A DNA stretch of 38,263 nt from Deltaproteobacteria bacterium (GTDB taxonomy: Bacteria > Desulfobacterota > GWC2-55-46). Every line of letters begins with the position of its first letter. Position 1 is the stretch's first letter. The position numbers were made by a program, and so were the translations under genes. Under the pieces are notes generated by a model. It ran no database searches. It was not told where the DNA came from and was given only the letters and a program-made list of their open reading frames with translations. The stretch is from the NCBI GenBank assembly GCA_016182655.1, contig JACPGB010000013.1:1-38263 (forward strand), given 5' to 3'. This document shows positions 3,960 through 22,543 of this stretch, piece after piece.

Positions 3960-5144
3960 TTATCTATAGACCTTCTTTTCCCCGCCTTCGGCGGCCTCGG
4001 CGGCCTTTTTATCGTCCCGGGCCTTCTTTGCGGCTTCAGTTGGCTGGTAGGTGCAAAACGGCTCTTCGTCCATGTAGTTTGCGGTAAAGGCGAATGCCCT
4101 TGCCCTGCAACCGCCGCATACCTTCCTGAACTCGCAGTACCCGCACCTGCCGTTGTAGTCGTCCCAGTTCCGCATCTCCTGGAATACCTTGGAGGTGTCC
4201 CATATCGTATGGAAGGGCTCTTTTCTTATGTCGCCGCACTCCACATCAAGGAAGCCGCAGATCTGCACCTTGCCGGTGTTCGAGACGAATGCGAAGGACT
4301 GTCCGCCCATGCAACCCTTACTCATGGCGTCGAGCCCGTGGGTCTCTGGCGTGACAATTACGCCCTTCTCTTTTTCCTTTTGCCTGAATATCCTATAGTA
4401 ATGGGGGGCGCAGGTCGGCTTGAACTGGAGCGGCACCTTGTCCCTCATCTCATGGAACCACGAGAGCGACTTCTCGTACTCCTCGGGGGATATCTCCTGG
4501 TCCTTCAACTGAGCGCCCCTGCCGGTCGGCACAAGCAGGAACGGGTGGTGCGCTACGGCCCCGAGGCTTATGACGAGCTCGAGTATCTTAGGCAACTCCG
4601 CGAGGTTGTGCTTGGTGATGGTGGTATTGACCTGAAACGGGAGCCCGACCTTCTTTACGCTCTCTATCGCCTGCATGACGGAAGCGAACGCGCCGTTGAC
4701 CCTTCTAAAGTTGTCGTGGCTCTCGGCGGTCGCGCCGTCTATGGAGAAGGAGACGCGCTGGATGCCGGAGTCTATCATCTTCTGCGCGGTTTCAACCGTC
4801 ACGAGGAAGCCGCAGGGGGCCATGACCATGCGAAGACCCAGCTTGGTCCCGTACTTGGCTATGTCCCAGATGTCGTCGCGGAGCATCGGCTCCCCGCCGG
4901 TCATGATGATTATCGGGCTTGAGAAAGAGGCGACGTCGTCTAAGAAGTCGTAGCATTCCTTTGTGGCAAGCTCGTTAGGGTACGGGCCGAACCTCGCCGC
5001 CGCCCTGCAATGTATGCAGTCCAAGTTGCAAGACCTCGTCAACTCCCACGCTATCAGCTTCGGCAGCCATTTTCTGCCGCCGCTCTTGTCCGGTCCTTTC
5101 GCCATCCCAGGCACCTCGTGCGGATGGCCTTTCGGCATATGCAT
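3960..5144 (-). CDS. ahbD: Radical SAM/SPASM heme synthase AhbD-like (Fe-coproporphyrin III decarboxylase)
   Basis: The 394-residue protein carries the radical SAM cluster motif CNLDCIHC (C39, C43, C46) after a His/Pro-rich N-terminus, then MTGGEP (SAM binding) and GTKLGLRMVMAPCG. A cysteine-rich SPASM region (CGFLDVECGD ... RCGYCEFRKVCGGCRARAFA ... EEPFC) would hold a second 4Fe-4S cluster. AhbD converts Fe-coproporphyrin III to heme b by oxidative decarboxylation of two propionates, the last step of the siroheme-dependent pathway; the paralogue NirJ acts in heme d1 synthesis. The position downstream of hemB and cobA-hemD favours AhbD. ATG 5144 is preceded by AAAGGAG at 8 nt. AhbA, AhbB and AhbC are not in the window. 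Confidence 0.82.
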   Translation of the reverse strand: MHMPKGHPHEVPGMAKGPDKSGGRKWLPKLIAWELTRSCNLDCIHCRAAARFGPYPNELATKECYDFLDDVASFSSPIIIMTGGEPMLRDDIWDIAKYGTKLGLRMVMAPCGFLVTVETAQKMIDSGIQRVSFSIDGATAESHDNFRRVNGAFASVMQAIESVKKVGLPFQVNTTITKHNLAELPKILELVISLGAVAHHPFLLVPTGRGAQLKDQEISPEEYEKSLSWFHEMRDKVPLQFKPTCAPHYYRIFRQKEKEKGVIVTPETHGLDAMSKGCMGGQSFAFVSNTGKVQICGFLDVECGDIRKEPFHTIWDTSKVFQEMRNWDDYNGRCGYCEFRKVCGGCRARAFAFTANYMDEEPFCTYQPTEAAKKARDDKKAAEAAEGGEKKVYR

Positions 5145-5330: not shown

Positions 5331-6305
5331 CTACTTCTGGAGGACTTTTGCCGCCTCCTTGGCGAAATAAGTAAGTATCATGTCGGCCCCGGCGCGCTTA
5401 ATGGACGTGAGAGACTCCATCATCGCCCTCTCGCCGTCAATCCAGCCCTTCTCTGCCGCGGCCTTTATCGTCGAGAACTCGCCGCTTACGTTGTACGCGG
5501 CGGTCGGGTATCCGAACTCTTCCTTTATCCTTCTTATGATGTCGAGATACGGGAGCGCGGGCTTTACCATGACGATGTCCGCGCCTTCCTCGATGTCGAG
5601 CGCCACTTCCCGCATCGCCTCGTCCGTGTTGCCGGGGTCCATCTGGTAAGAGCGCCTGTCCCCGAACTGCGGGGTCGATTCCGCCGCCTCCCTGAAAGGC
5701 CCGTAGAAGGCGGATGCGTACTTTGCCGCGTAGCTCATGACCGGGATGTGGGAGAAGTCGTTCTCGTCAAGCGTATCCCTTATCGCGGCGACGCGCCCGT
5801 CCATCATGTCCGAGGGGGCGACTATATCGGCCCCGGCCTCGGCGTGGGAAAGGGCCTCCCTGGAGAGCAACTCGAGTGTGGCGTCGTTGTCGACGTCCTT
5901 ACCTTTTATGATACCACAGTGGCCGTGCGAAGTATATTCGCACATGCAGACGTCCGTTATGACCGCAAGGCCCGGGACCTTGTTTTTTATGGCCTTTATA
6001 GCCTCCTGGACAGGCCCCCTGGGGTCGAAGGCGGTGGAGCCTTCCTCGTCCTTGTGCTCCGGGATGCCGAAGAGGATGACCGCCGGGATGCCGAGCCCCT
6101 TTACCTCTTTCGCCTCTTTTACGATGTTATCGACCGAGAGCTGTGAGTGGCCGGGCATGGAGGTTATCGGCTTCTTTACGTTCTTCCCGAAGGTGACGAA
6201 CAGGGGGAGGATGAGGTCGTTGGGGGTGAGGTTCGTCTCCCGGACCATGTTCCTGATGGTCTCGGTCTTGCGGAGCCTTCTTGGACGATAAAACGGGAAG
6301 TTCAT
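5331..6305 (-). CDS. hemB: Delta-aminolevulinic acid dehydratase (porphobilinogen synthase)
   Basis: This enzyme condenses two 5-aminolevulinate molecules to porphobilinogen in the cytoplasm. The 324 residues are full length. Visible are the zinc site [13 protein letters not shown] (C120, C122, C130), the Schiff-base lysines in [15 protein letters not shown] (K195) and [11 protein letters not shown] (K248), and the family motif RSYQMDPGN. The triple-Cys site points to a Zn-dependent rather than purely Mg-dependent enzyme. The start ATG has AGGAG six bases upstream and lies 9 nt after the cobA-hemD stop, so the two are surely co-transcribed. Confidence 0.97.
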
Positions 6306-6314
6306 ACCGATCTC

Positions 6315-7838
6315 CTATTTCTTTCTGAAGTATTCTGCCATCGCATTAGTCAACGCCGGGATGGTATAGTCCTTCGGCATAATATCGACCTGAATGCCAT
6401 ATTCTTTAGCGGTATCGGCGGTTATCGGGCCGATGCAGGCTATGGTGACGCCCTTTAAAAGCCCCGGCAACTCGGCCTTCTTGAACATGGAGGCGAAGTT
6501 GGTGACGGTCGAGGACGAGGTGAATGTGATCACATCTACCCCGCCTTCTGTAAGGAGCTTTTTAAGCTCCCCGGCCTCCTTTGTGGGCCTTATCGTCTTA
6601 TAGGACGGGACGACATCTATCCTGCCGCCGAGCCTTTTAATCTCCTGCGGTATTATCTCCCTCGCCTGCATGGCTCTCGCGAGGAGGAACTTTTTCCCCT
6701 TGATGCGCCTCTTGCCGAGGGCGTCGAGTACGGCCTCCGCCCTGTATTCCTTCGGCGTCAAGTCTACCTTTATGCCGAGCTTCTTTATCGCCTTTTCGGT
6801 CATGGGGCCTATGGCGCAGATCTTTACGCCCTTGAGCTCCCTTAGATCCTTGTCGAGTTTATAGAGCCTTTCAAAGAAATATTTTACGCCGTTGACGGAA
6901 GTGAATATCGCCCAGTCGTAGGACGAGAGCTTTTTGATCGCCTTGTCGAGCGGCTTCCAGTCAGGCGGTGCGACGGTCTTGATCGTGGGGAAGGTAATCG
7001 GCTCCGCGCCGTTCCTCTCAAGTAGCTTCGAGAAATCCCCTGCCTGCTCAAGGGCCCTTGTTACGAGGATGCGTTTTCCGAAGAGCGGCTTCGTCTCGAA
7101 CCAGTTGAGTTTCTCCCGTAAACTGACCACATCCCCGACGACTATAATAACCGGCGGCCTCATCTCCTGTTCGCCGGCAAGCGCGACGATTGTGCCGAGG
7201 GTGCCGGACAGGCACTTCTGCTTGGTCATCGTCCCCCAGCGCACAAGCGCCACCGGGGTCGACGCGGCCCAGCCGTTCTCAAGGAGTTTGGAGGTTATAA
7301 GAGAGAGGTTCTTCCACCCCATGAGGAAGACGAGAGTGCCTCTGCCGACAGAGAGCCTGTCCCAAGCGATGTTCGACCTCTCCTTTAAGGGGTTCTCCTG
7401 CCCCGTTATGAAGGTAACCGAGGACGCGAGGTCCCTGTGTGTAAGCGGTATGCCCGCGTAGGCCGGTGCGGCTGTGGCTGAAGTGACGCCCGGGACTATC
7501 TCGAAGGGGATGCCTGCGGCAACGAGCTCTTCCGCCTCTTCGCCGCCACGCCCGAAGATGAACGGGTCGCCGCCCTTGAGCCTTACGACCATCTTGCCTT
7601 TTTGAGCGAGCGAGATAATGAGCCTGTTTATCTCCTCCTGCTCCATCGTCTTCTCGGAGCCTTTTTTCCCGACATAGATCGTCTCTGCGCCGGGCCTGGC
7701 GTTTTCGAGAAGGCGCGCGTTGGCGAGGAAGTCGTAGATGACGGCGTCGGCCTCTTTGAGCGCCTCAAGGCCTTTGACGGTCATGAGGCCCGGATCCCCG
7801 GGCCCCGCCCCGACCAGAAAAACTTTGCCAGTAGTCAT
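6315..7838 (-). CDS. cobA-hemD: Fused uroporphyrinogen-III C-methyltransferase / uroporphyrinogen-III synthase
   Basis: The protein has 507 residues. Residues ~4-245 form SUMT (CobA), with VFLVGAGPGDPGLMTVKG (SAM-binding loop), VVRLKGGDPFIFGRGGEE and VPGVTSATAAPAYAGIPLTHR. Residues ~253-507 form HemD, with two Rossmann-like halves (KRILVTRALEQAGDFSKLLE; DVITFTSSSTVTNFASMF; IACIGPITADTAKEYGI). HemD cyclises hydroxymethylbilane to uroporphyrinogen III and CobA methylates it twice to precorrin-2, so the fusion channels flux to siroheme, siroheme-derived heme or cobalamin. This fusion is well known in deltaproteobacteria and clostridia. A good promoter lies upstream at 7954-7982; the Shine-Dalgarno is weak. 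Confidence 0.96.
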   Translation of the reverse strand: MTTGKVFLVGAGPGDPGLMTVKGLEALKEADAVIYDFLANARLLENARPGAETIYVGKKGSEKTMEQEEINRLIISLAQKGKMVVRLKGGDPFIFGRGGEEAEELVAAGIPFEIVPGVTSATAAPAYAGIPLTHRDLASSVTFITGQENPLKERSNIAWDRLSVGRGTLVFLMGWKNLSLITSKLLENGWAASTPVALVRWGTMTKQKCLSGTLGTIVALAGEQEMRPPVIIVVGDVVSLREKLNWFETKPLFGKRILVTRALEQAGDFSKLLERNGAEPITFPTIKTVAPPDWKPLDKAIKKLSSYDWAIFTSVNGVKYFFERLYKLDKDLRELKGVKICAIGPMTEKAIKKLGIKVDLTPKEYRAEAVLDALGKRRIKGKKFLLARAMQAREIIPQEIKRLGGRIDVVPSYKTIRPTKEAGELKKLLTEGGVDVITFTSSSTVTNFASMFKKAELPGLLKGVTIACIGPITADTAKEYGIQVDIMPKDYTIPALTNAMAEYFRKK

Positions 7839-10442: not shown

Positions 10443-11150
10443 TTACCTCTTCCCCTTCTTCCCCGGGCACTGGACCGGGGTCTCGGTGTCGCTCGCGAGG
10501 TCGTGGCTGAAACATTTGGCCGGGATGTCCTGCATCCGGCACTCGTCGAGGAACATTTTTATAACCGCCGTCTTCCCCTCAATCGACAACATCTCGTACC
10601 CTATGGGGCTCTCCGATTTTTTGACAGGGACCTCTGCGCCCCGTTCCCCGTCGAAGATGTAGATGCCATAGGAGCAGTGCGCCTTTTTGTCTCCCACGGC
10701 CTTCAAATCGTCCATCCAGGTGTATTCCTCTATCTCGAACGGCGTCTCTTTCCATTTAAGGGTCTTGTTTAACGCGATCGCCTTCGGGGCGGCGTCTGCT
10801 TTCTCGGATGGGACGATGACGAAGTCGTCCTTCGGGCTGAAAATGAGCTTTCTGTAGATGTCCGCCTCGGTCAGGGTTTTCTTGTCGCCGGGGTCCCTGA
10901 AATTGACTGTACGGACGAGGCCGTCGGTGTCGAAGAAGCTTATCCGCCAGAGGGCGCGGGTGTCAGGGTCGACCTTCGCCTTTTTCGGCTCAACGGACCC
11001 TTTTACAAGCGTGAATGTGATCTCGAACCTGCCCGAAGGTGTGTGGATGGTCTTTTTGGCCATAGGGTTACCGAAGCCCATCGAGAGAAGGGCGAAAATG
11101 ACGGAGACTACGGGCAGGATGAGGCGCGCGGGGTTCAGGTGTTTTTTCAT
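10443..11150 (-). CDS. Hypothetical exported protein, tandem paralogue A
   Basis: From the ATG shared with its paralogue (MKKHLNPARLILPVVSVIFA) the protein has 235 residues. The N-terminus is a Sec-type signal or membrane anchor. The rest looks beta-rich and periplasmic, with four cysteines (KAHCSYG, DECRMQ, AKCFSH, VQCPG) that could form two disulfides. I do not recognise the family. It shares about 92% identity with the next gene upstream (18 differences in 235 residues), and the duplicated unit is 796 bp, including the upstream hairpin repeat. No function can be assigned. Confidence 0.75.
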   Translation of the reverse strand: MKKHLNPARLILPVVSVIFALLSMGFGNPMAKKTIHTPSGRFEITFTLVKGSVEPKKAKVDPDTRALWRISFFDTDGLVRTVNFRDPGDKKTLTEADIYRKLIFSPKDDFVIVPSEKADAAPKAIALNKTLKWKETPFEIEEYTWMDDLKAVGDKKAHCSYGIYIFDGERGAEVPVKKSESPIGYEMLSIEGKTAVIKMFLDECRMQDIPAKCFSHDLASDTETPVQCPGKKGKR

Positions 11151-11162
11151 GATGGTCTCGAT

Positions 11163-11222
11163 TGTAGGGTGGGCTTCGCCCACCAGTCCCGTAGGTCGGG
11201 TTAGCATGGCGTAACCCGACAT
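11163..11222. repeat. Hairpin repeats GTAGGGTGGGC and GTAGGTCGGGTTAGC
   Basis: The first hairpin (GGTGGGC TTC GCCCACC) is duplicated at 11958-11980 as part of the gene duplication. The second has a CGGGTTA/TAACCCG stem and is present only here, between the two paralogues. Confidence 0.8.
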
Positions 11223-11238
11223 CTTAAAATAACAACAA

Positions 11239-11946
11239 CTACCTCTTCCCCTTCTTCCCCGGACACTGGATTGGCGTCTCGGTGTCGCTGGCGAGGTCGT
11301 GGCTGAAGCATTTTGCCGGGATGTCCTGCATCCGGCACTCATCGAGGAACATCTTTATCGTCGCCGTCTTTCCTTCAATCGACAACATCTCATACCCTAT
11401 GGGGCTCTCCGATTTTTTTACCGGGACCTGCGCGCCCCGTTCCCCGTCGAAGATGTAGACGCCGTACGAGCAGTGCGCCTTCTTGTCTCCCACTGCCTTC
11501 AAGTCGTCCAGCCAGGTGTATTCTTCTATCTCGAACGGCGTTTCTTTCCATTTAAGTGTTTTGCTGAGCGCGATGGCCCTGGGGGCCGTGCCTGCGACCT
11601 CGGGCGGGACAATGACGAAGTCGTCCTTCGGGCTGAATACGAGCCTCCTGTAGATGTCCGCCTCGGTCAGGGCCTTTTTATCGCCGGGGTCCCTGAAGTT
11701 GACGGTACGGACGAGGCCGTCGGCGTCGAAGAAGCTTATCCGCCAGAGGGCGCGGGTGTCCGGGTCGACCTTCGCCCTCTTCGGCTCTATTGACCCTTTT
11801 ACAAGCGTGAATGTGATCTCGAACCTGCCCGAAGGGGTGTGGATGGTCTTTTTGGCCATAGGGTTCCCGAAGCCCATCGAGAGGAGGGCGAAAATGACGG
11901 AGACTACGGGCAGGATGAAGCGCGCGGGGTTCAGGTGTTTTTTCAT
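11239..11946 (-). CDS. Hypothetical exported protein, tandem paralogue B
   Basis: A 235-residue paralogue of the gene at 10443-11150, with the same signal region (MKKHLNPARFILPVVSVIFA), the same four cysteines and the same C-terminus (PIQCPGKKGKR). Most substitutions are conservative (V/I, K/R, L/F). The most divergent patch is IVPPEVAGTAPRA versus IVPSEKADAAPKA. Both copies keep full-length frames, so both are probably expressed, but no Shine-Dalgarno is clear at either start. The function is unknown; the pair could be periplasmic or membrane-tethered proteins of a lineage-specific family. Confidence 0.75.
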   Translation of the reverse strand: MKKHLNPARFILPVVSVIFALLSMGFGNPMAKKTIHTPSGRFEITFTLVKGSIEPKRAKVDPDTRALWRISFFDADGLVRTVNFRDPGDKKALTEADIYRRLVFSPKDDFVIVPPEVAGTAPRAIALSKTLKWKETPFEIEEYTWLDDLKAVGDKKAHCSYGVYIFDGERGAQVPVKKSESPIGYEMLSIEGKTATIKMFLDECRMQDIPAKCFSHDLASDTETPIQCPGKKGKR

Positions 11947-11957
11947 GATGGTCTCGA

Positions 11958-12432
11958 TTGTAGGGTGGGCTTCGCCCACCAGATCATTTTTTTGTAATCC
12001 CCCTCAATCCCCCTTTAGGAAAGGGGGAGGTAAAAGGACATTCTCCTTTATTCCTTTTTCATCAGGGGAGGCGATGCCGCAACTGGATTCCAGCTTGAAG
12101 CACGCGGGAATGACAGCTTTTGGTGGGAGGAGCCCACCAAACAAACCTTTAAGACGACCCCTCCCCACCTCCCCTTGTTAAGGGGAGGTGATAAAGCCCC
12201 CGGCATCCGTCTTCTGTTCCCCTCCTTACCAAGGAGGGGCAAGGGGAGGTCGTATTGTTTTTTACGATGGAATTCTTTCACCCTCCCCTTCATCCCCTCC
12301 CATCAAGGGAGGGGAGACACCGCAACTGGATTCCCGCTTTAAGCACGCGGGAATGACAGTTTTGGTGGGCGGAGCCCACCCTACAATCACAGAATACGCC
12401 CCTCTCCTTGTTAAGGGGAGGGGGCACGCTAA
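11958..12432. repeat. Mosaic of intergenic hairpin repeats
   Basis: This is part of the 699-base gap 11947-12645. In order: a GTAGGGTGGGC hairpin (11958-11980); a C-rich half repeat near 12000-12030; an ACTGGATTCC...GCGGGAATGACA element (12081-12116); a GGTGGG/CCCACC hairpin (12119-12140); composite copy 3 (12155-12316); a second ACTGGATTCCCGC...GCGGGAATGACAG element (12324-12359); an inverted GTGGGC hairpin (12360-12384); and a lone B/C-type hairpin (about 12402-12432). I see no gene. Confidence 0.75.
12155..12316 (-). repeat. Three-hairpin composite repeat, copy 3 (inverted orientation)
   Basis: It reads C-B-A on the plus strand, so A-B-C on the minus strand. A short insertion (about 15-20 nt, GATAAAGCCCCCGGCATCC) separates C and B. 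The B-A linker retains GGTCGTATTG...TTTTTTACG. Confidence 0.8.
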
Positions 12433-12645: not shown

Positions 12646-13590
12646 CTACGCAGACCCCGGGGGGTTTACCTGGTAGAGCTCTTTGAGTATGTCGTATGCG
12701 CCCATCTTGAGGAGTCTTTCGGCGAGTTCGACTCCGAGTGTTTCGCAATTCTCCTTCGGGCCGGTGACTACGTCTTTTACGAAGGTCTTTCCGTCCGGGC
12801 TTGCGACAAGGCCCTTGAGCGTAAGCGTTTCTCCGGAGAGGGTCCCGTACGCCGCGATAGGCACCTGGCAGCCGCCTTCGAGCCTCTTAAGGAGCGCCCT
12901 TTCTGCCCGAACAGCGTATGAGGTCTCGGGGTGGTCGAAGAACGCGACGAGGTCGTTTATGTACGCGTCGTTAGTCGGGGTCTCTATGCCGAGCGCGCCC
13001 TGGCCTATGGCCGGAAGGCTCACTTCGGGAGAGAGGAGCTCGGTGATCTTGTCCGCCCATCCGAGCCTTTTAACGCCAGCGCCCGCGAGGATGATCGCGT
13101 CGAAGTGGCCGTCGTCGAGCTTTTTAAGGCGAGTGTCGAGGTTTCCGCGAAGCTGTAAAATCTCGAAGTCGGGCCTTAAGTGAAGGAGCTGGGATTGCCT
13201 GCGGAGGCTCGAAGTGCCGATCTTCGCGCCTTTCGGGAGGTCGAGGAGCTTTACTTTATTTCTGCTGAATACCGCGTCCCTCGGGTCTTCGCGTTCGGTT
13301 ATGCAGCGCAGGTGGAGCCCGTCGGGGAAGAAGGTCGGGACATCCTTCATGGAGTGTACCGCGAGGTGGACCCTGCCTTCGAGGAGCGCCTCTTCTATCT
13401 CCTTTACGAAGAGCCCTTTGCCGCCGACCTTTGCGAGCGGTACGTCGAGGATCTTGTCTCCCGTCGTCTTTATCTTGGTGAGAGATACTTCGATGTCCGG
13501 GTATTTTTTTTCGAGCTCTGATTTTACCCAGTTCGCCTGCCAGAGGGCAAGGGCGCTGCCGCGGGTGCCGATGATCACTTTTTTCTTCAA
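12646..13590 (-). CDS. hemC: Porphobilinogen deaminase (hydroxymethylbilane synthase)
   Basis: It polymerises four porphobilinogens to hydroxymethylbilane in the cytoplasm, the step between HemB and HemD. The 314 residues are full length. Visible are IGTRGSALALWQANWVKSEL, the VHSMKDVPT loop with the catalytic Asp (about D83), GTSSLRRQSQLLHLRPD, QLRGNLDTRL and the dipyrromethane cofactor cysteine in LEGGCQVPIAAYG (C241). The start is TTG (13590), with the plausible start peptide MKKKVIIGTRGSA. It is separated from hemA by 318 bp of repeats, so it may not be efficiently co-transcribed with it. Confidence 0.96.
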   Translation of the reverse strand: MKKKVIIGTRGSALALWQANWVKSELEKKYPDIEVSLTKIKTTGDKILDVPLAKVGGKGLFVKEIEEALLEGRVHLAVHSMKDVPTFFPDGLHLRCITEREDPRDAVFSRNKVKLLDLPKGAKIGTSSLRRQSQLLHLRPDFEILQLRGNLDTRLKKLDDGHFDAIILAGAGVKRLGWADKITELLSPEVSLPAIGQGALGIETPTNDAYINDLVAFFDHPETSYAVRAERALLKRLEGGCQVPIAAYGTLSGETLTLKGLVASPDGKTFVKDVVTGPKENCETLGVELAERLLKMGAYDILKELYQVNPPGSA

Positions 13591-13908: not shown

Positions 13909-15213
13909 TCAATCGTCGTTGTTCTGCGCCTTTTTTACGGCCTCTTCGTCTATGGTCAGGTCGAAGAGCTTCCTTATGGTGTCGATGTACAAATCCCCCT
14001 CCACCTTGTTCGCCTCTTTCTTGAGGTGCGTGACTGGGTGGTGGAGGATTTTATTCACTATCGCGGAGGTCATGGCGTCGAGCACCTTCCGGTCTTTTTC
14101 GGAAAGGTGATTCAAGGACGCGAGCCCCTTCTGCATCTCCGCCTTCCGTATCTGGTCGCATGTCTGGCGGAGCGATATTATCGTGGGGACGACATCGAGC
14201 GACTTTATCCAGCGATAGAACTTCTCTATCTCCTCTTCGACTATCCTCTCGGCCGCCTCCGCCTCCTTGGAGCGTTCCTGGAGGTTGGCCACGACCACGC
14301 CCTGGAGGTCGTCTACGTCGTAGACGTAGCAGTTGTCGACGTTGTTCACGAGCGGGTCGATGTTCCTCGGGACCGAGATGTCGATGAAGAACATCGGCTT
14401 CTGCTTGCGCTCGCGCATGACCTCGTGTATCTGGTCGGGCCTTATGATGAAGTTAGGCGCGCCGGTAGAGGCGATGACGATGTCGACGTTTTTGAGATAA
14501 TGGGGGAACTCCCTGAACATTATCGCCGTGCCGCCGAAGCCCTTGACCATCTCGACGGCCTTTTCATAAGTGCGGTTGGCTACGAGTATCTCCCTGATGC
14601 CGTTCGTAAGGAGGTGCTTGGCCGCAAGCTCGGCCATCTCTCCGGCGCCGATGAGCATGCAGGACTTTCCGGAGAGGTCGCCGAATATCTTTCTCGCAAG
14701 CTCTATCGCCGCAAAGCTGATGGATACGGCGGACTCGCCAATTTTAGTCTCGCTCCTTATCCTTTTGGCGACCTGGAAGGCCTTGTGGTAGAGCTTGTTT
14801 ACTATGACCCCGGCGGTGTTGAATTGCACCGCGTAGCCGTAGGAGTCCTTTACCTGTCCGAGTATCTGGGGTTCCCCCATTACCATGGAGTCGAGCCCGG
14901 CGCCGACCCTGAAGAGGTGCTTTACCGCGTCCTCGCCCAAGTGGACATATAGATGCTCATCGAGCTTTTCAAGCGGGATGGCGTGGTAGTCGGACAGGAA
15001 CCTCTTTATCTGCCAGACACCCTTTTCCATGTCGTTCGTGATAGCCAGCACCTCGACCCTGTTGCAGGTGGAAAGTATCACGCCCTCGTTAAGCCCGAAG
15101 TGGTTCGTGAGCTTCTTAAGGGGCTCGCCGATAGTCTGTGAGGGGAACGAGAGCTTCTCCCTTATCTCTATCGGCGAGGTCTTATGGTTGAGTCCGACTA
15201 TTATGAGGTTCAT
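13909..15213 (-). CDS. hemA: Glutamyl-tRNA reductase
   Basis: It reduces glutamyl-tRNA to glutamate-1-semialdehyde with NADPH, the first committed step of C5-pathway tetrapyrrole synthesis. The 434 residues are full length. Visible are IVGLNHKTSPIEIREKLSF, the active-site cysteine in ILSTCNRVEVLA (C50), the NADPH-binding segment SCMLIGAGEMAELAAKHLL and VNRTYEKA-type residues after it, IASTGAPNFII and FFIDISVPRNIDP. The C-terminal helical dimerisation domain runs from about 320. It starts 17 nt after ccsA, an order (hemX/ccsA-hemA) common in bacteria. hemL is not in the window. Confidence 0.97.
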   Translation of the reverse strand: MNLIIVGLNHKTSPIEIREKLSFPSQTIGEPLKKLTNHFGLNEGVILSTCNRVEVLAITNDMEKGVWQIKRFLSDYHAIPLEKLDEHLYVHLGEDAVKHLFRVGAGLDSMVMGEPQILGQVKDSYGYAVQFNTAGVIVNKLYHKAFQVAKRIRSETKIGESAVSISFAAIELARKIFGDLSGKSCMLIGAGEMAELAAKHLLTNGIREILVANRTYEKAVEMVKGFGGTAIMFREFPHYLKNVDIVIASTGAPNFIIRPDQIHEVMRERKQKPMFFIDISVPRNIDPLVNNVDNCYVYDVDDLQGVVVANLQERSKEAEAAERIVEEEIEKFYRWIKSLDVVPTIISLRQTCDQIRKAEMQKGLASLNHLSEKDRKVLDAMTSAIVNKILHHPVTHLKKEANKVEGDLYIDTIRKLFDLTIDEEAVKKAQNNDD

Positions 15214-15230: not shown

Positions 15231-16049
15231 CTATTGCGAGAGCCCGTGGGCCCCGCCTGAGACGAGATTTATGATGATGAACGAAGCAAGGAGTATCATG
15301 AACGCGGTCCCTGAGAATATCGCCGCCTTCCTGCCTCTCCAACCGGCGGTGAGCCTGCCGTGGAGTAGCGCGGCGTACAGGAACCATGTGATGAGCGACC
15401 AGATCTGCCGGGGCTTCCAGTCCCAGTAGCTCCCTACGGCGTACTCGGACCAGACCGCGCCGGTGATGATGGCGACGGTAAGGAGCGGGAACCCATATTG
15501 TAGACACTTGTAATTGAGCTCGTCCAATACCTCAAGCGAGGGGAGTATGAAGTAGAGCCCCTTGAGCTTCCTCTTTTTAAGGTACCTCTCCTGGATGATG
15601 TACATTATCCCCAGGAAGAAGGCGAGCGCGAAGAAGGCGTTGCCCATAAACGCCAGTATCACATGGACCGGGAGCCAGTAGCTTTCAAGGACCGGCGCAA
15701 GCGGTATTATCTCCTGCGGCAGGAGAGACGCGCTCAATATCAGGAGGAGTGCGAACGGGGCGATGAACGCGCCGAGGACCCTCTGCTTGTACTTGAAGAG
15801 GAGGAACATGTAGAGAGCGATGACGATCCAGGAGAAGAATGTAAGCGACTCGTGGAGGCTTGTGGCCGGGGTCCTGCCCGCCGCGACCCAGCGGGTGACG
15901 ATGGTGACCGTGTGGGCCGCGAACCCGGCCAGAAGGATATACTGCGCCGCGTCGAGGAGCCTGTCCTTGCGAGCGAAGAGGTACCCTATGTAGACGAAAG
16001 TGGCCACCAGGTATGCGACCGCCGTTATATGGAAGAAGATTTCACTCAA
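15231..16049 (-). CDS. ccsA: CcsA/HemX-type cytochrome c assembly membrane protein
   Basis: The 272-residue polytopic membrane protein has about eight hydrophobic segments. The tryptophan-rich signature of the CcsA/CcmC/CcmF family is present as GSYWDWKPRQIWSLITWFLYA (about residues 208-228), which handles heme at the outer face of the inner membrane. Conserved-looking histidines occur in HTVTIVTRW, SLHESLTFFSW, LPVHVILAF and LLHGRL. CcsA with CcsB (ResB) delivers and attaches heme to cytochromes c; HemX-like members next to hemA may instead tune HemA levels. The start is a TTG overlapping the end of the upstream pseudogene by 8 nt. Confidence 0.88.
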   Translation of the reverse strand: MSEIFFHITAVAYLVATFVYIGYLFARKDRLLDAAQYILLAGFAAHTVTIVTRWVAAGRTPATSLHESLTFFSWIVIALYMFLLFKYKQRVLGAFIAPFALLLILSASLLPQEIIPLAPVLESYWLPVHVILAFMGNAFFALAFFLGIMYIIQERYLKKRKLKGLYFILPSLEVLDELNYKCLQYGFPLLTVAIITGAVWSEYAVGSYWDWKPRQIWSLITWFLYAALLHGRLTAGWRGRKAAIFSGTAFMILLASFIIINLVSGGAHGLSQ

Positions 16050-16640
16050 TATTTTTTGTCCTGCCCCTGCCCTTGTTTTTCGGACCCATACCCAGGTCTG
16101 AGAGCGAATACCCCTTCCCGAGTAGGTCTTTAAGGTATGCGTCTATCTTTTCGAATGAACCCTCCTTTATCCAGACCAATATCGGAGAATCCACCAAGGC
16201 TTTGATAACTCTTTCTTTTTTAACACGATTGATGTTGCTTTTCAACAGCTTATTCCGGACCTTGCCGATGAAAGGAGCGGGTCCCGGTCTACTATGGAGG
16301 GCACAATGAACGAGCATCTCTCCGGGTCGTCGACCGTGTTTATAAGGACCCCTCGTTTTTGCGCCTCATTATATACGGAGGCGTTTACCGCCCTGTCGTT
16401 TGAGGCCGAGACCGCGAGGAAGACGCCGATGAGATCGCCCTCCTGGTACTTCCTTTTTATGAGCTCGATGCTTCCCTTATCCGCAAGTCCCTTTACGGCC
16501 TTTGAGGCCGTCGGGCTTACGACCGTGACCTCTGCCCCGGCTGAGAGGAGGCCTTCGATCTTCCGGAGGGCGACAGCTCCCCCGCCTATTACGAGGCACT
16601 GCCGCCCCTTTATGTCGAGAAATACCGGATAGTATCGCAT
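16042..16640 (-). pseudogene. Precorrin-2 dehydrogenase (CysG N-domain/Met8-like), internally deleted and frameshifted
   Basis: The first frame (from ATG 16640) reads as the NAD-binding domain: YYPVFLDIKGRQCLVIGGGA, then VALRKIEGLLSAGAEVTVVS, TVDDPERCSFIVPSIVDRDP. It then leaves the family pattern and stops at 16242-16244. A second frame continues with a typical C-terminal part (FIGKVRNKLL, KKERVIKALVDSPI, YLKDLLGKGYSLSDLG) and ends at 16042. Between IVDRDPLL and FIGKVRN the conserved segment that normally reads like 'AISTGGxSPxxARxxRxxLE' is missing, so roughly 35-40 codons are deleted with a frame change near 16262-16275. The enzyme oxidises precorrin-2 to sirohydrochlorin; this copy should be inactive unless the sequence is wrong here. 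Confidence 0.8.
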
Positions 16641-16649
16641 TTATGGGGG

Positions 16650-16655
16650 ATTATA
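16650..16655 (-). promoter_or_regulatory. Consensus -10 box for the hem operon, close to the start codon
   Basis: A perfect TATAAT on the minus strand ends 9 nt before the ATG at 16640, so a transcript from it would be nearly leaderless. No convincing -35 is present. The upstream DNA (about 16660-16790) is strikingly AT-rich and holds an inverted repeat GGAAGATTA (16735-16743)/TAATCTTCC (16775-16783). Confidence 0.4.
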
Positions 16656-16847
16656 CCCTCATCCTATCCTTTTTCGTCATAAAAATAGAAAAATTTAGAA
16701 AAATATCAGGCATGTGCCGGGGTATTATCTCAGGGGAAGATTAAAAAAGCCTGAAAAAGAGATATAAATTTTAATAATCTTCCGGGTAGTGGATAGGCGC
16801 TACGATGTGAAAAATTAATGATAAACGAGCCTTTTGCTCAGGCGGGG

Positions 16848-17233: not shown

Positions 17234-18682
17234 TCAGACGACCTCCCCGATATGCCATGCCTCGTCGCCCGAGGCGGCGGCGTATACCATCATCACCTCT
17301 CCCCGGCATTCGCTCAAGGGCAGGCGTATCTCGTAGTTATTCGCCTTAAGCGACTCCGCAAAATGGAAGACCGAAGGCCTGAAGACCTCGCCGTCAAATG
17401 CGGTGTCTATCATGACGGATGAGAGCGCGTCGACCCCCTTTTCCCCGAATCTTTCTATTTTTATGACGCAGGTATCGGTCTTTTCGTCTATCGAGTACCT
17501 TGATTTGACTTTGGGGGTGGGTCTCTTGTGGCAATGCGCGCTTTCACCGGCCTCGAAGAGCGAGAACGGGCGCGGCCCTTTGCCAAAGCGCCTCTTCGGG
17601 TTCTCGAGAGACTTAGACGATGCGATGGATAAAAGCCGCTCCTCGACCGTCCGCATGGACAACTCGCCCGAGTCTATCCCTATCCAGCGTCTGCCGAGCT
17701 TTTCAGCGACGGCGAGTGTCGTGCCCGCGCCCGCGAATGCGTCGAGCACGAGGTCGCCATTATTCGATGCGGCGTTTATGATGCGCGCGAGGAGCGCTTC
17801 GGGCTTCTGCGTCGGGTATCCGGTCTTCTCTTCAGTGCTCAAGTGCATGGCGTCCGGGATGTCGTCCCAGACATCTCCCACGAGCTTGTCCTCGATGAGC
17901 CGGTCGCCGTCCTCTTTAAGGAAGTATTTTATCCGGATGTTCCCGTTTTTAGTCTCGTAGACGCGGCCGTCTTTCCTCAAGGCCGCAATTGAAGCGTCGG
18001 TGTAGTCGCCGCGCGGAGAGGTCTTGAACCACCTGCCGGATGAGTCCTCTCGGAACCCCGCCTCGCCCTTCCGCACCCTCTTTTGCGTGAACTGCTGGTT
18101 AAAGACGCGGTGTTTCCCCCCGTACCAGAGTATTATATCGTGGTTCCTGGAAAACTGAGACGCTATCGCCTTCGCGCCCCTGCCGCCGTAGCTCCAGACG
18201 ATGTCGTTAAGGAAGTTCTCCTCGCTGAAGACCTCGTCCATTATTATCTTGATCGAATGGGCCTTCTTCCAGTCGAGGTGGACGAATATGGAGCCGTCGT
18301 CCGAGAGCAACTCGCGTAGCAGTATCAGCCTTTTCCGGAGGAACTCTATAAAAGAGGGGCCGATGATCTTGTCATCGTATGCGCGGTGCTCTTTCTTTGA
18401 TTTGAACGAGAGGTTCGTTGCGAAGGGCGGGTCGATGTATACGAGGCGCACGCCCTTTGAGCCGTCTCCGTTCCGGAGGAGCCCCTCTTGCTTCATTTCA
18501 AGGAGCGTCTTCAAGACCGGCAGGTTCTCTCCGTGGATGAGCATGTTCAATGATGGACCTTGCCCAAAGGCCTTTGTCTCGATGAGCGGCGCGGCCTTGA
18601 CTGAGAGCGCCTTCGCCTCCGTGACCTTGCCCGGGTAGACGAGCTCGCAAGCACCGTTTTTTTCAACCTGCTTTTTTATCAT
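17234..18682 (-). CDS. Orphan beta-class DNA methyltransferase (adenine-N6 or cytosine-N4; Mod-like)
   Basis: The 482-residue protein has motif IV as YIDPPFAT (DPPF at 84-87) before motif I as LDAFAGAGTTLAVAEKLGRR (314-320), the permuted order of beta-class methyltransferases such as type III Mod and CcrM-like enzymes. GYPTQKPEALLARII just before motif I is also typical. DPPF fits adenine-N6 methylation, though N4-cytosine is not excluded. Residues after about 360 form an extra C-terminal region that I cannot name. No restriction subunit is adjacent (neighbours are a LapA-like and a ferredoxin gene), so it is an orphan methylase or part of a broken system. Confidence 0.9.
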   Translation of the reverse strand: MIKKQVEKNGACELVYPGKVTEAKALSVKAAPLIETKAFGQGPSLNMLIHGENLPVLKTLLEMKQEGLLRNGDGSKGVRLVYIDPPFATNLSFKSKKEHRAYDDKIIGPSFIEFLRKRLILLRELLSDDGSIFVHLDWKKAHSIKIIMDEVFSEENFLNDIVWSYGGRGAKAIASQFSRNHDIILWYGGKHRVFNQQFTQKRVRKGEAGFREDSSGRWFKTSPRGDYTDASIAALRKDGRVYETKNGNIRIKYFLKEDGDRLIEDKLVGDVWDDIPDAMHLSTEEKTGYPTQKPEALLARIINAASNNGDLVLDAFAGAGTTLAVAEKLGRRWIGIDSGELSMRTVEERLLSIASSKSLENPKRRFGKGPRPFSLFEAGESAHCHKRPTPKVKSRYSIDEKTDTCVIKIERFGEKGVDALSSVMIDTAFDGEVFRPSVFHFAESLKANNYEIRLPLSECRGEVMMVYAAASGDEAWHIGEVV

Positions 18683-22193: not shown

Positions 22194-22543
22194 TGGTGGG
22201 CGGAGCCCACCCTACGAGACTTGATGAATAAAGGATTGAAACATATTGTTGCCGAGGTCATCGGAGAGCGTGGACTGCCCCGTAAGGAACTAAGACTTGA
22301 TGAATAAAGGATTGAAACTTGGAGAGGCGGTTGCCGCCGTTCGTGCCGTCGAGTGTAAGGAACTAAGACTTGATGAATAAAGGATTGAAACGTCACAGCC
22401 TGAGGTACGAAGCCCTCTTCGTTGAACTTGTAAGGAACTAAGACTTGATGAATAAAGGATTGAAACGCAGTGGACCGAAACATCGAGATAACGATTAATA
22501 GGGCGTAAGGAACTAAGTCTTGTAGGGTGGGCTCGGCCCACCA
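22194..22543. repeat. 29-bp inverted repeat bracketing the CRISPR array
   Basis: The left arm 22194-22222 and the right arm 22515-22543 are reverse complements with 2 mismatches. Each consists of the dispersed GTAGGGTGGGC hairpin repeat plus 7 bases (AGACTT side) belonging to the CRISPR repeat. The rest of the 483-base gap 22121-22603 is the array and a terminator. Confidence 0.85.
22217..22522 (+). CRISPR. Orphan CRISPR mini-array: 3 full and 2 truncated 37-bp repeats, 4 spacers
   Basis: The repeat begins GTAAGGAACTAAGACTTG and ends ATGAATAAAGGATTGAAAC. Full copies at 22282-22318, 22355-22391 and 22430-22466 are identical. The first copy keeps only repeat bases 12-37 (22217-22242) and the last only bases 1-18 with one change (22505-22522). 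Spacers are 39, 36, 38 and 38 nt. The 3' ATTGAAAC end sets the plus-strand orientation and is common in type I and III arrays. No cas genes and no leader are present in the window. Confidence 0.97.

Follow-up and report, generated by a model that had tools for sequence, protein, structure and literature searches.

In CysG, the site occupied by tetrapyrroles lies between the helical domain and the Rossmann fold, D104 is a catalytic residue required for both activities of the enzyme, and P133 forms a platform for the tetrapyrrole, as described in the portion of the report used here (PMC7018833). Among solved structures, the SirC-type precorrin-2 dehydrogenase (PC2DH) of PDB entry 3dfz is the closest in sequence to the homologue from G003, a genome of the same genus as the one examined in this study (E 2.3e-30), and intact relatives share its Rossmann domain and its order of segments. 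The gene described below differs from both systems. Compared with 3dfz, its middle segment is missing and its helical domain is out of frame. When aligned to the N-terminal domain of CysG (PDB 1pjq and 6p5x), in which D104 of the G003 protein also falls on CysG D104, the remaining open reading frame retains this Asp and the P106 position, whereas the segment from S128 to P133 has been deleted. Moreover, it is a separate gene, and the methyltransferase resides in a cobA-hemD fusion. A further point of comparison is provided by internal promoters of bacterial operons, as treated in the part of PMC12083536 used here. The promoter predicted in our study likewise lies inside an operon, but within the coding sequence of the upstream gene, with conservation at the codon level among genes with identities as low as 29% to that of G003, and it precedes ccsB even where its host gene is elsewhere or absent.

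The DNA stretch analysed (the window, 38,263 nucleotides) is contig C19 of a deltaproteobacterial draft genome (the source genome) of 2.91 Mb in 60 contigs that is 97.6% complete. The PC2DH gene includes the following features.

16640-16042, minus strand: PC2DH gene, whole as assembled, in two frames
16242..16640, minus strand: N-terminal part of the PC2DH gene, a 132-aa open reading frame with the Rossmann NAD(P)-binding domain and the Asp aligned to CysG D104; its final residues lie outside the ancestral frame
16271..16275, minus strand: site at which the 100-bp deletion and the change of frame occur, placed by DNA alignment with same-genus genes
16042..16271, minus strand: C-terminal part of the PC2DH gene (helical domain), in a shifted frame that is open up to its own end
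16240..16245, minus strand: predicted -35 box TTGAAA, containing a premature stop codon TGA (16244-16242)
16217..16222, minus strand: predicted -10 box TAAAAA, of the extended -10 type with TGT in front of it, after a 17-nt spacer

Upstream of this gene is an adenine-specific DNA methyltransferase-like gene (17234-18682) that is also present in G001, G002, and G003. Farther away, four copies of a 39-nt repeat, one of them only 69% alike, recur at a spacing of 73 to 76 nt in a CRISPR-like mini array (22205-22467).

The 132-aa open reading frame matches the NAD-binding family PF13241 over its full length (118.3 bits, cut-off 22.1), and it exceeds the cut-off for TIGR01470 (cysG_Nterm; 127.9 versus 62.3 bits) while covering only positions 1 to 122 of 205. 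The C-terminal continuation is found in a different frame, within an open reading frame (16042-16317, minus strand) that overlaps the first by 76 bases (16242-16317) and that, taken alone, matches no Pfam or NCBIfam model. Alignment of the DNA with the genes of G001, G002, and G003 yields a single net gap of 100 bp, equal to 33 codons plus one base, with matching flanks on both sides. As this alignment shows, the assembled gene corresponds to a predicted ordinary SirC/CysG-N-type PC2DH minus one 100-bp piece. The internal deletion and frameshift reported in the preliminary description are thus borne out, as are its two recognisable ends in good condition. The region bearing the AISTGG.SP motif is indeed lost, but the size of the missing piece had been overestimated at 35 to 40 codons.

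Because the deletion removes the tetrapyrrole-binding middle segment with its P133 platform and leaves the helical domain in another frame, where tblastn splits the match, we infer that the assembled gene is a null allele from which no working enzyme would be expected, even though the catalytic Asp is kept. The 76-base overlap and the open frame of the C-terminal half could be taken to mean that an enzyme is still produced, either by ribosomal frameshifting within the overlap or by two interacting halves. We regard this as very improbable, given that 33 residues including the platform are missing in any frame and that inspection by eye reveals no slippery heptamer at the junction.

The preliminary description had named the occurrence of the same short architecture in other genomes as an observation that would speak against a defect. 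A tblastn search with the intact G003 protein matched 98 loci, and the two-frame split was seen only in L001 and L005, which are both copies of the locus under study. Since no other homologue compared is split or gapped, the short form is, among the genomes compared, private to the source assembly. The TIGR01470 cut-off is passed in 51 of 59 genomes, the source genome included. Some match to this model occurs in 41 of 42 good genomes, although the matches in G031 (98% complete) and G046 are merely hemA-like or partial, the former only hemA-like. The whole-genome search for a second PC2DH that had been suggested previously was run with profiles on the 97.6%-complete source genome and found none. 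Its other PF13241 matches were rejected as candidates, as one corresponds to hemA and the others were assigned, from the sequences of their open reading frames, to a FabG-like reductase and an IlvC-like protein. G004 was considered as a possible second case of loss; its cobA-bearing contig C198 stops at 10394 bases, short of the place expected for the gene from the G003 order.

The consequences of a missing PC2DH depend on the tetrapyrrole genes of the window, which are as follows.

15231..16049, minus strand: ccsB (cytochrome c assembly; hemX-like position), the first gene behind the predicted promoter
13909..15213, minus strand: hemA, glutamyl-tRNA reductase, intact
12646..13590, minus strand: hemC, hydroxymethylbilane synthase, intact
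6315..7838, minus strand: cobA-hemD fusion, which makes precorrin-2, the substrate of PC2DH, intact
5331..6305, minus strand: hemB, intact
3960..5144, minus strand: ahbD, heme b synthase, intact and above its family cut-off

The stretch from cobA-hemD to hemC holds a tandem gene pair (10443-11979), each member of which shares about 80% identity with the lone G003 copy, and this stretch is longer in the window than in that genome.

The presence of ahbD had led to the proposal that an AhbD-type heme route must either be rewired or draw on another sirohydrochlorin-forming enzyme. This proposal finds no support in the gene content of the source genome, where HemE, the ferrochelatase HemH, and HemY are encoded by one cluster on contig C40. 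AhbD can complete the coproporphyrin route by decarboxylating coproheme, and it occurs beside hemY and hemH, according to the sections of two reports used here (PMC10548856, PMC7242693). With AhbD as the predicted enzyme of this step, and if HemY acts on coproporphyrinogen, all components of the coproporphyrin-dependent pathway (HemE, HemY/CgoX, HemH/CpfC, and a coproheme decarboxylase) are represented. The siroheme-dependent (Ahb) pathway is not, as the best AhbC match reaches 360.6 bits against a cut-off of 650, and the protein concerned scores higher as NirJ1, also under that cut-off. No AhbC above its cut-off was found in any of five genomes of the genus. Since HemE, HemH, HemY, and AhbD are all present, heme can, by prediction, be made through coproporphyrin without PC2DH. 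AhbD is no marker of a siroheme route in the source genome, and its presence should not be read as proof that heme is made from siroheme.

The AhbA/AhbB pair (siroheme decarboxylase alpha and beta) is found in G000, G002, and G004 and is absent from G003 and G001, which keep PC2DH nevertheless. This retention, together with the lack of an AhbC above its cut-off, suggests that PC2DH would supply the routes to siroheme and cobalamin and, in genomes that have one, a heme-d1-like route. The predicted consumers of sirohydrochlorin look intact in the source genome. These comprise NirB, a sulfite-reductase-like protein, a cbi cluster with a chelatase-methylmutase fusion, CbiG, and CbiD, and an AhbA/AhbB pair beside a NirJ-like protein that would belong to the heme-d1-like route. 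Without PC2DH, all three routes would be cut off from sirohydrochlorin, barring another means of oxidising precorrin-2, and thus the intact state of the consumers sits badly with a real loss of PC2DH. At one locus (L163; G000 C3:66000-80000), AhbA/AhbB, a NirJ/AhbC-like radical SAM protein, and a beta-propeller protein adjoin cytochrome c oxidase subunit I.

Downstream of the deletion, the PC2DH gene carries the predicted promoter boxes, which are intact in the window. Codon conservation among 29 homologous genes is highest at G003 residues 161 to 180, where it reaches 0.70 to 0.77 per 15-codon stretch as compared with 0.25 to 0.58 for all other stretches. Of the 151 columns scored across 79 distinct genes, residues 164, 166, 167, 174, and 175 are the five with the most strongly frozen codons. 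In 77 of the 79 genes, Leu 166 is encoded by TTG, a codon whose share of the remaining Leu codons is 12% in one gene group (n = 1185) and 13% in the other (n = 837). Two patterns of boxes are evident. The first (TTGA(A/C)N, 17 nt, and a TAAAAA-like box, mostly with TGN before it) is found in 43 of the 79 genes, from the gene's own family and its neighbours. The second (TTGACN, 18 nt, and TA(C/T)AAT) is found in 29, mostly from Geobacter-like records. In all 29 of the latter, the Asn codon within the TA(C/T)AAT box is AAT, which is used for 72 of 164 Asn codons elsewhere. Thus, 72 of the 79 genes, which are related and hence do not represent independent events, carry sigma-70-type -35 and -10 boxes at a spacing of 16 to 18 nt that are conserved beyond coding need, and seven fit neither pattern.

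The boxes are the unique best promoter-like match of the gene in 65 of 77 cases (two of the 79 genes were left out of the shuffle test as too short), and their mean score of 9.9 exceeds the 7.6 obtained for synonymous shuffles. Taken singly, 43 of the 77 reach p < 0.05 and 34 are not significant. The site was chosen after the codon conservation had been seen, such that the column ranking and a PC2DH gene sited elsewhere (see below) serve as the checks that are independent of the motif. A generic promoter scan, which accepts only -10 boxes ending in T, does not list the window site. We take GSU3282-3284 to be the locus tags of the corresponding Geobacter genes, and a map of transcript starts reportedly exists for Geobacter sulfurreducens. 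Among the entries listed by a literature search with few subscription journals in its scope, no account of a promoter inside a PC2DH gene was found. From these patterns, the 3′ part of the gene apparently holds a deeply conserved sigma-70-like promoter, which is predicted to serve ccsB-hemA-hemC.

If this is the role of the boxes, they should stay with the downstream genes rather than with the host gene. Initially, 18 contig loci gave no PC2DH hit. Two of these (L112 and L123) were dropped because nearer queries found the gene or its end, and seven others lacked ccsB or its upstream DNA. Each of the nine loci that were kept includes ccsB together with 400 or more bases of its upstream DNA, in which even the nearer queries revealed no PC2DH. 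Boxes are located upstream of ccsB in four of them (L067, L108, L127, and L135), and no such boxes are found in the other five (L091, L125, L126, L131, and L133). At L108, just a weak match to a PC2DH remnant is present (E 0.002), whereas at L067 the boxes are situated 84 bases before ccsB in an apparent PC2DH tail. The genome of L067 (G059, which by coordinates is the same as G007) encodes PC2DH on contig C33, behind an open reading frame read as secF. This gene has CTT AAG and other codons at the matching positions, and the boxes are absent. The fact that L067 keeps the boxes while the PC2DH gene of the same genome is without them indicates that the constraint is one that follows ccsB-hemA and not the enzyme, though five of the nine loci are boxless. 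The PC2DH gene of G007/G059 (L164 1248-2057) also encodes an 18-residue insert (SYPSPFRGEGRVGVGG-like), the DNA of which resembles a dispersed repeat through which the reading frame continues.

Constraint on synonymous sites does not by itself identify an element, and the residues concerned are partly conserved themselves, so the frozen 3′ block could be maintained for another reason, such as an RNA element or a protein motif with codon bias. We consider this unlikely, as the constrained positions match the -35 and -10 consensus and the boxes remain with ccsB when PC2DH is sited elsewhere. A known RNA element was rejected, given that no Rfam match was found in the region 15900-16800.

The preliminary description attributed the lesion either to a recent loss or to an assembly error, and this choice is consistent with the absence of a second PC2DH and with a 100-bp gap that is private to the locus. 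Whether the 100 bp are missing in the organism or only in its assembly is about even, slightly toward artefact. An intact gene may be present in the organism, with the 100 bp dropped when contig ends were joined or with a minority strain variant entering the consensus, to which we assign an even chance. This possibility is favoured by the wide occurrence of PC2DH (51 of 59 genomes exceed its family cut-off), by the intact appearance of every sirohydrochlorin consumer, and by the fact that PC2DH is the sole frame-changing sense gene among the window genes matched to G001, G002, and G003. Moreover, the N-terminal half looks to be under purifying selection (dN 0.081, dS 0.703 versus G003), which points to either an artefact or a recent event. 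Against an assembly fault, the breakpoints in the relatives have no repeat that would trip an assembler, sharing a few bases at most as judged by eye. The missing piece is found in no other contig of the source genome, where the best chance match has an E value of 0.039 as compared with 2e-47 for G003 itself. This piece also folds no better than its shuffles (z 0.61), and a hairpin within it was rejected as the cause of the deletion on the same measure.

A real and recent loss in this lineage, to which we give somewhat less than an even chance, would be tolerated because of the other heme route and the spared hem promoter. Sirohydrochlorin would then arise by oxidation of precorrin-2 independently of PC2DH, or siroheme and cobalamin would no longer be made. 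The presence of HemE, HemH, HemY, and AhbD and the sparing of the promoter-like boxes are compatible with such a loss, and other genomes appear to be without the gene, including G031 as well as G060 and G062 (completeness unstated). A precedent is offered by Paracoccus denitrificans, which, in the portion of the source used here, is described as having no obvious PC2DH candidate yet requiring siroheme as the precursor of heme d1 (PMC4063343). The values of dN and dS against G003 are 0.104 and 0.301 for the C-terminal half, a ratio above that of the N-terminal half, though its synonymous sites are frozen. However, the sirohydrochlorin consumers are without sign of decay, and no candidate replacement enzyme was found in the source genome. 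The remark in the preliminary description that the gene exhibits no other decay is correct for its two ends, but is weaker as evidence of recency, since the conserved promoter-like element inside the gene partly explains the state of the 3′ part. Indeed, the low dS there is what promoter constraint would give, and therefore the good state of this part cannot date the loss.

Taken together, we consider it probable that the window carries a SirC/CysG-N-type gene from which 100 bp are deleted, that the gene is null as written, that a 3′ promoter for ccsB-hemA-hemC has been spared, and that heme can be made independently of PC2DH. Because the broken gene seems to carry the promoter of its neighbours, the deletion is probably harmless to them, and the essential early tetrapyrrole genes ccsB-hemA-hemC should stay expressed. 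As an instance of gene loss, the finding is modest, as it concerns a single broken copy from one draft assembly and may be an artefact. Of greater importance is the predicted embedded promoter, which would explain how a gene that no longer functions can seem intact at its 3′ end. More tentatively, and below even odds in our estimation, the ccsB-hemA promoter may be locked inside a siroheme gene in these deltaproteobacterial lineages, such that, when the gene is lost or moved, erosion would proceed only as far as the promoter and a short fossil of the gene would remain. In that case, the window would represent an early, real stage in which the enzyme is dead and the promoter tail is kept. L067 serves as a natural experiment in this regard, as the gene is found elsewhere and the promoter stayed. 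The predicted promoter offers a testable account of how the hemA operon may be controlled in a group that includes Geobacter.
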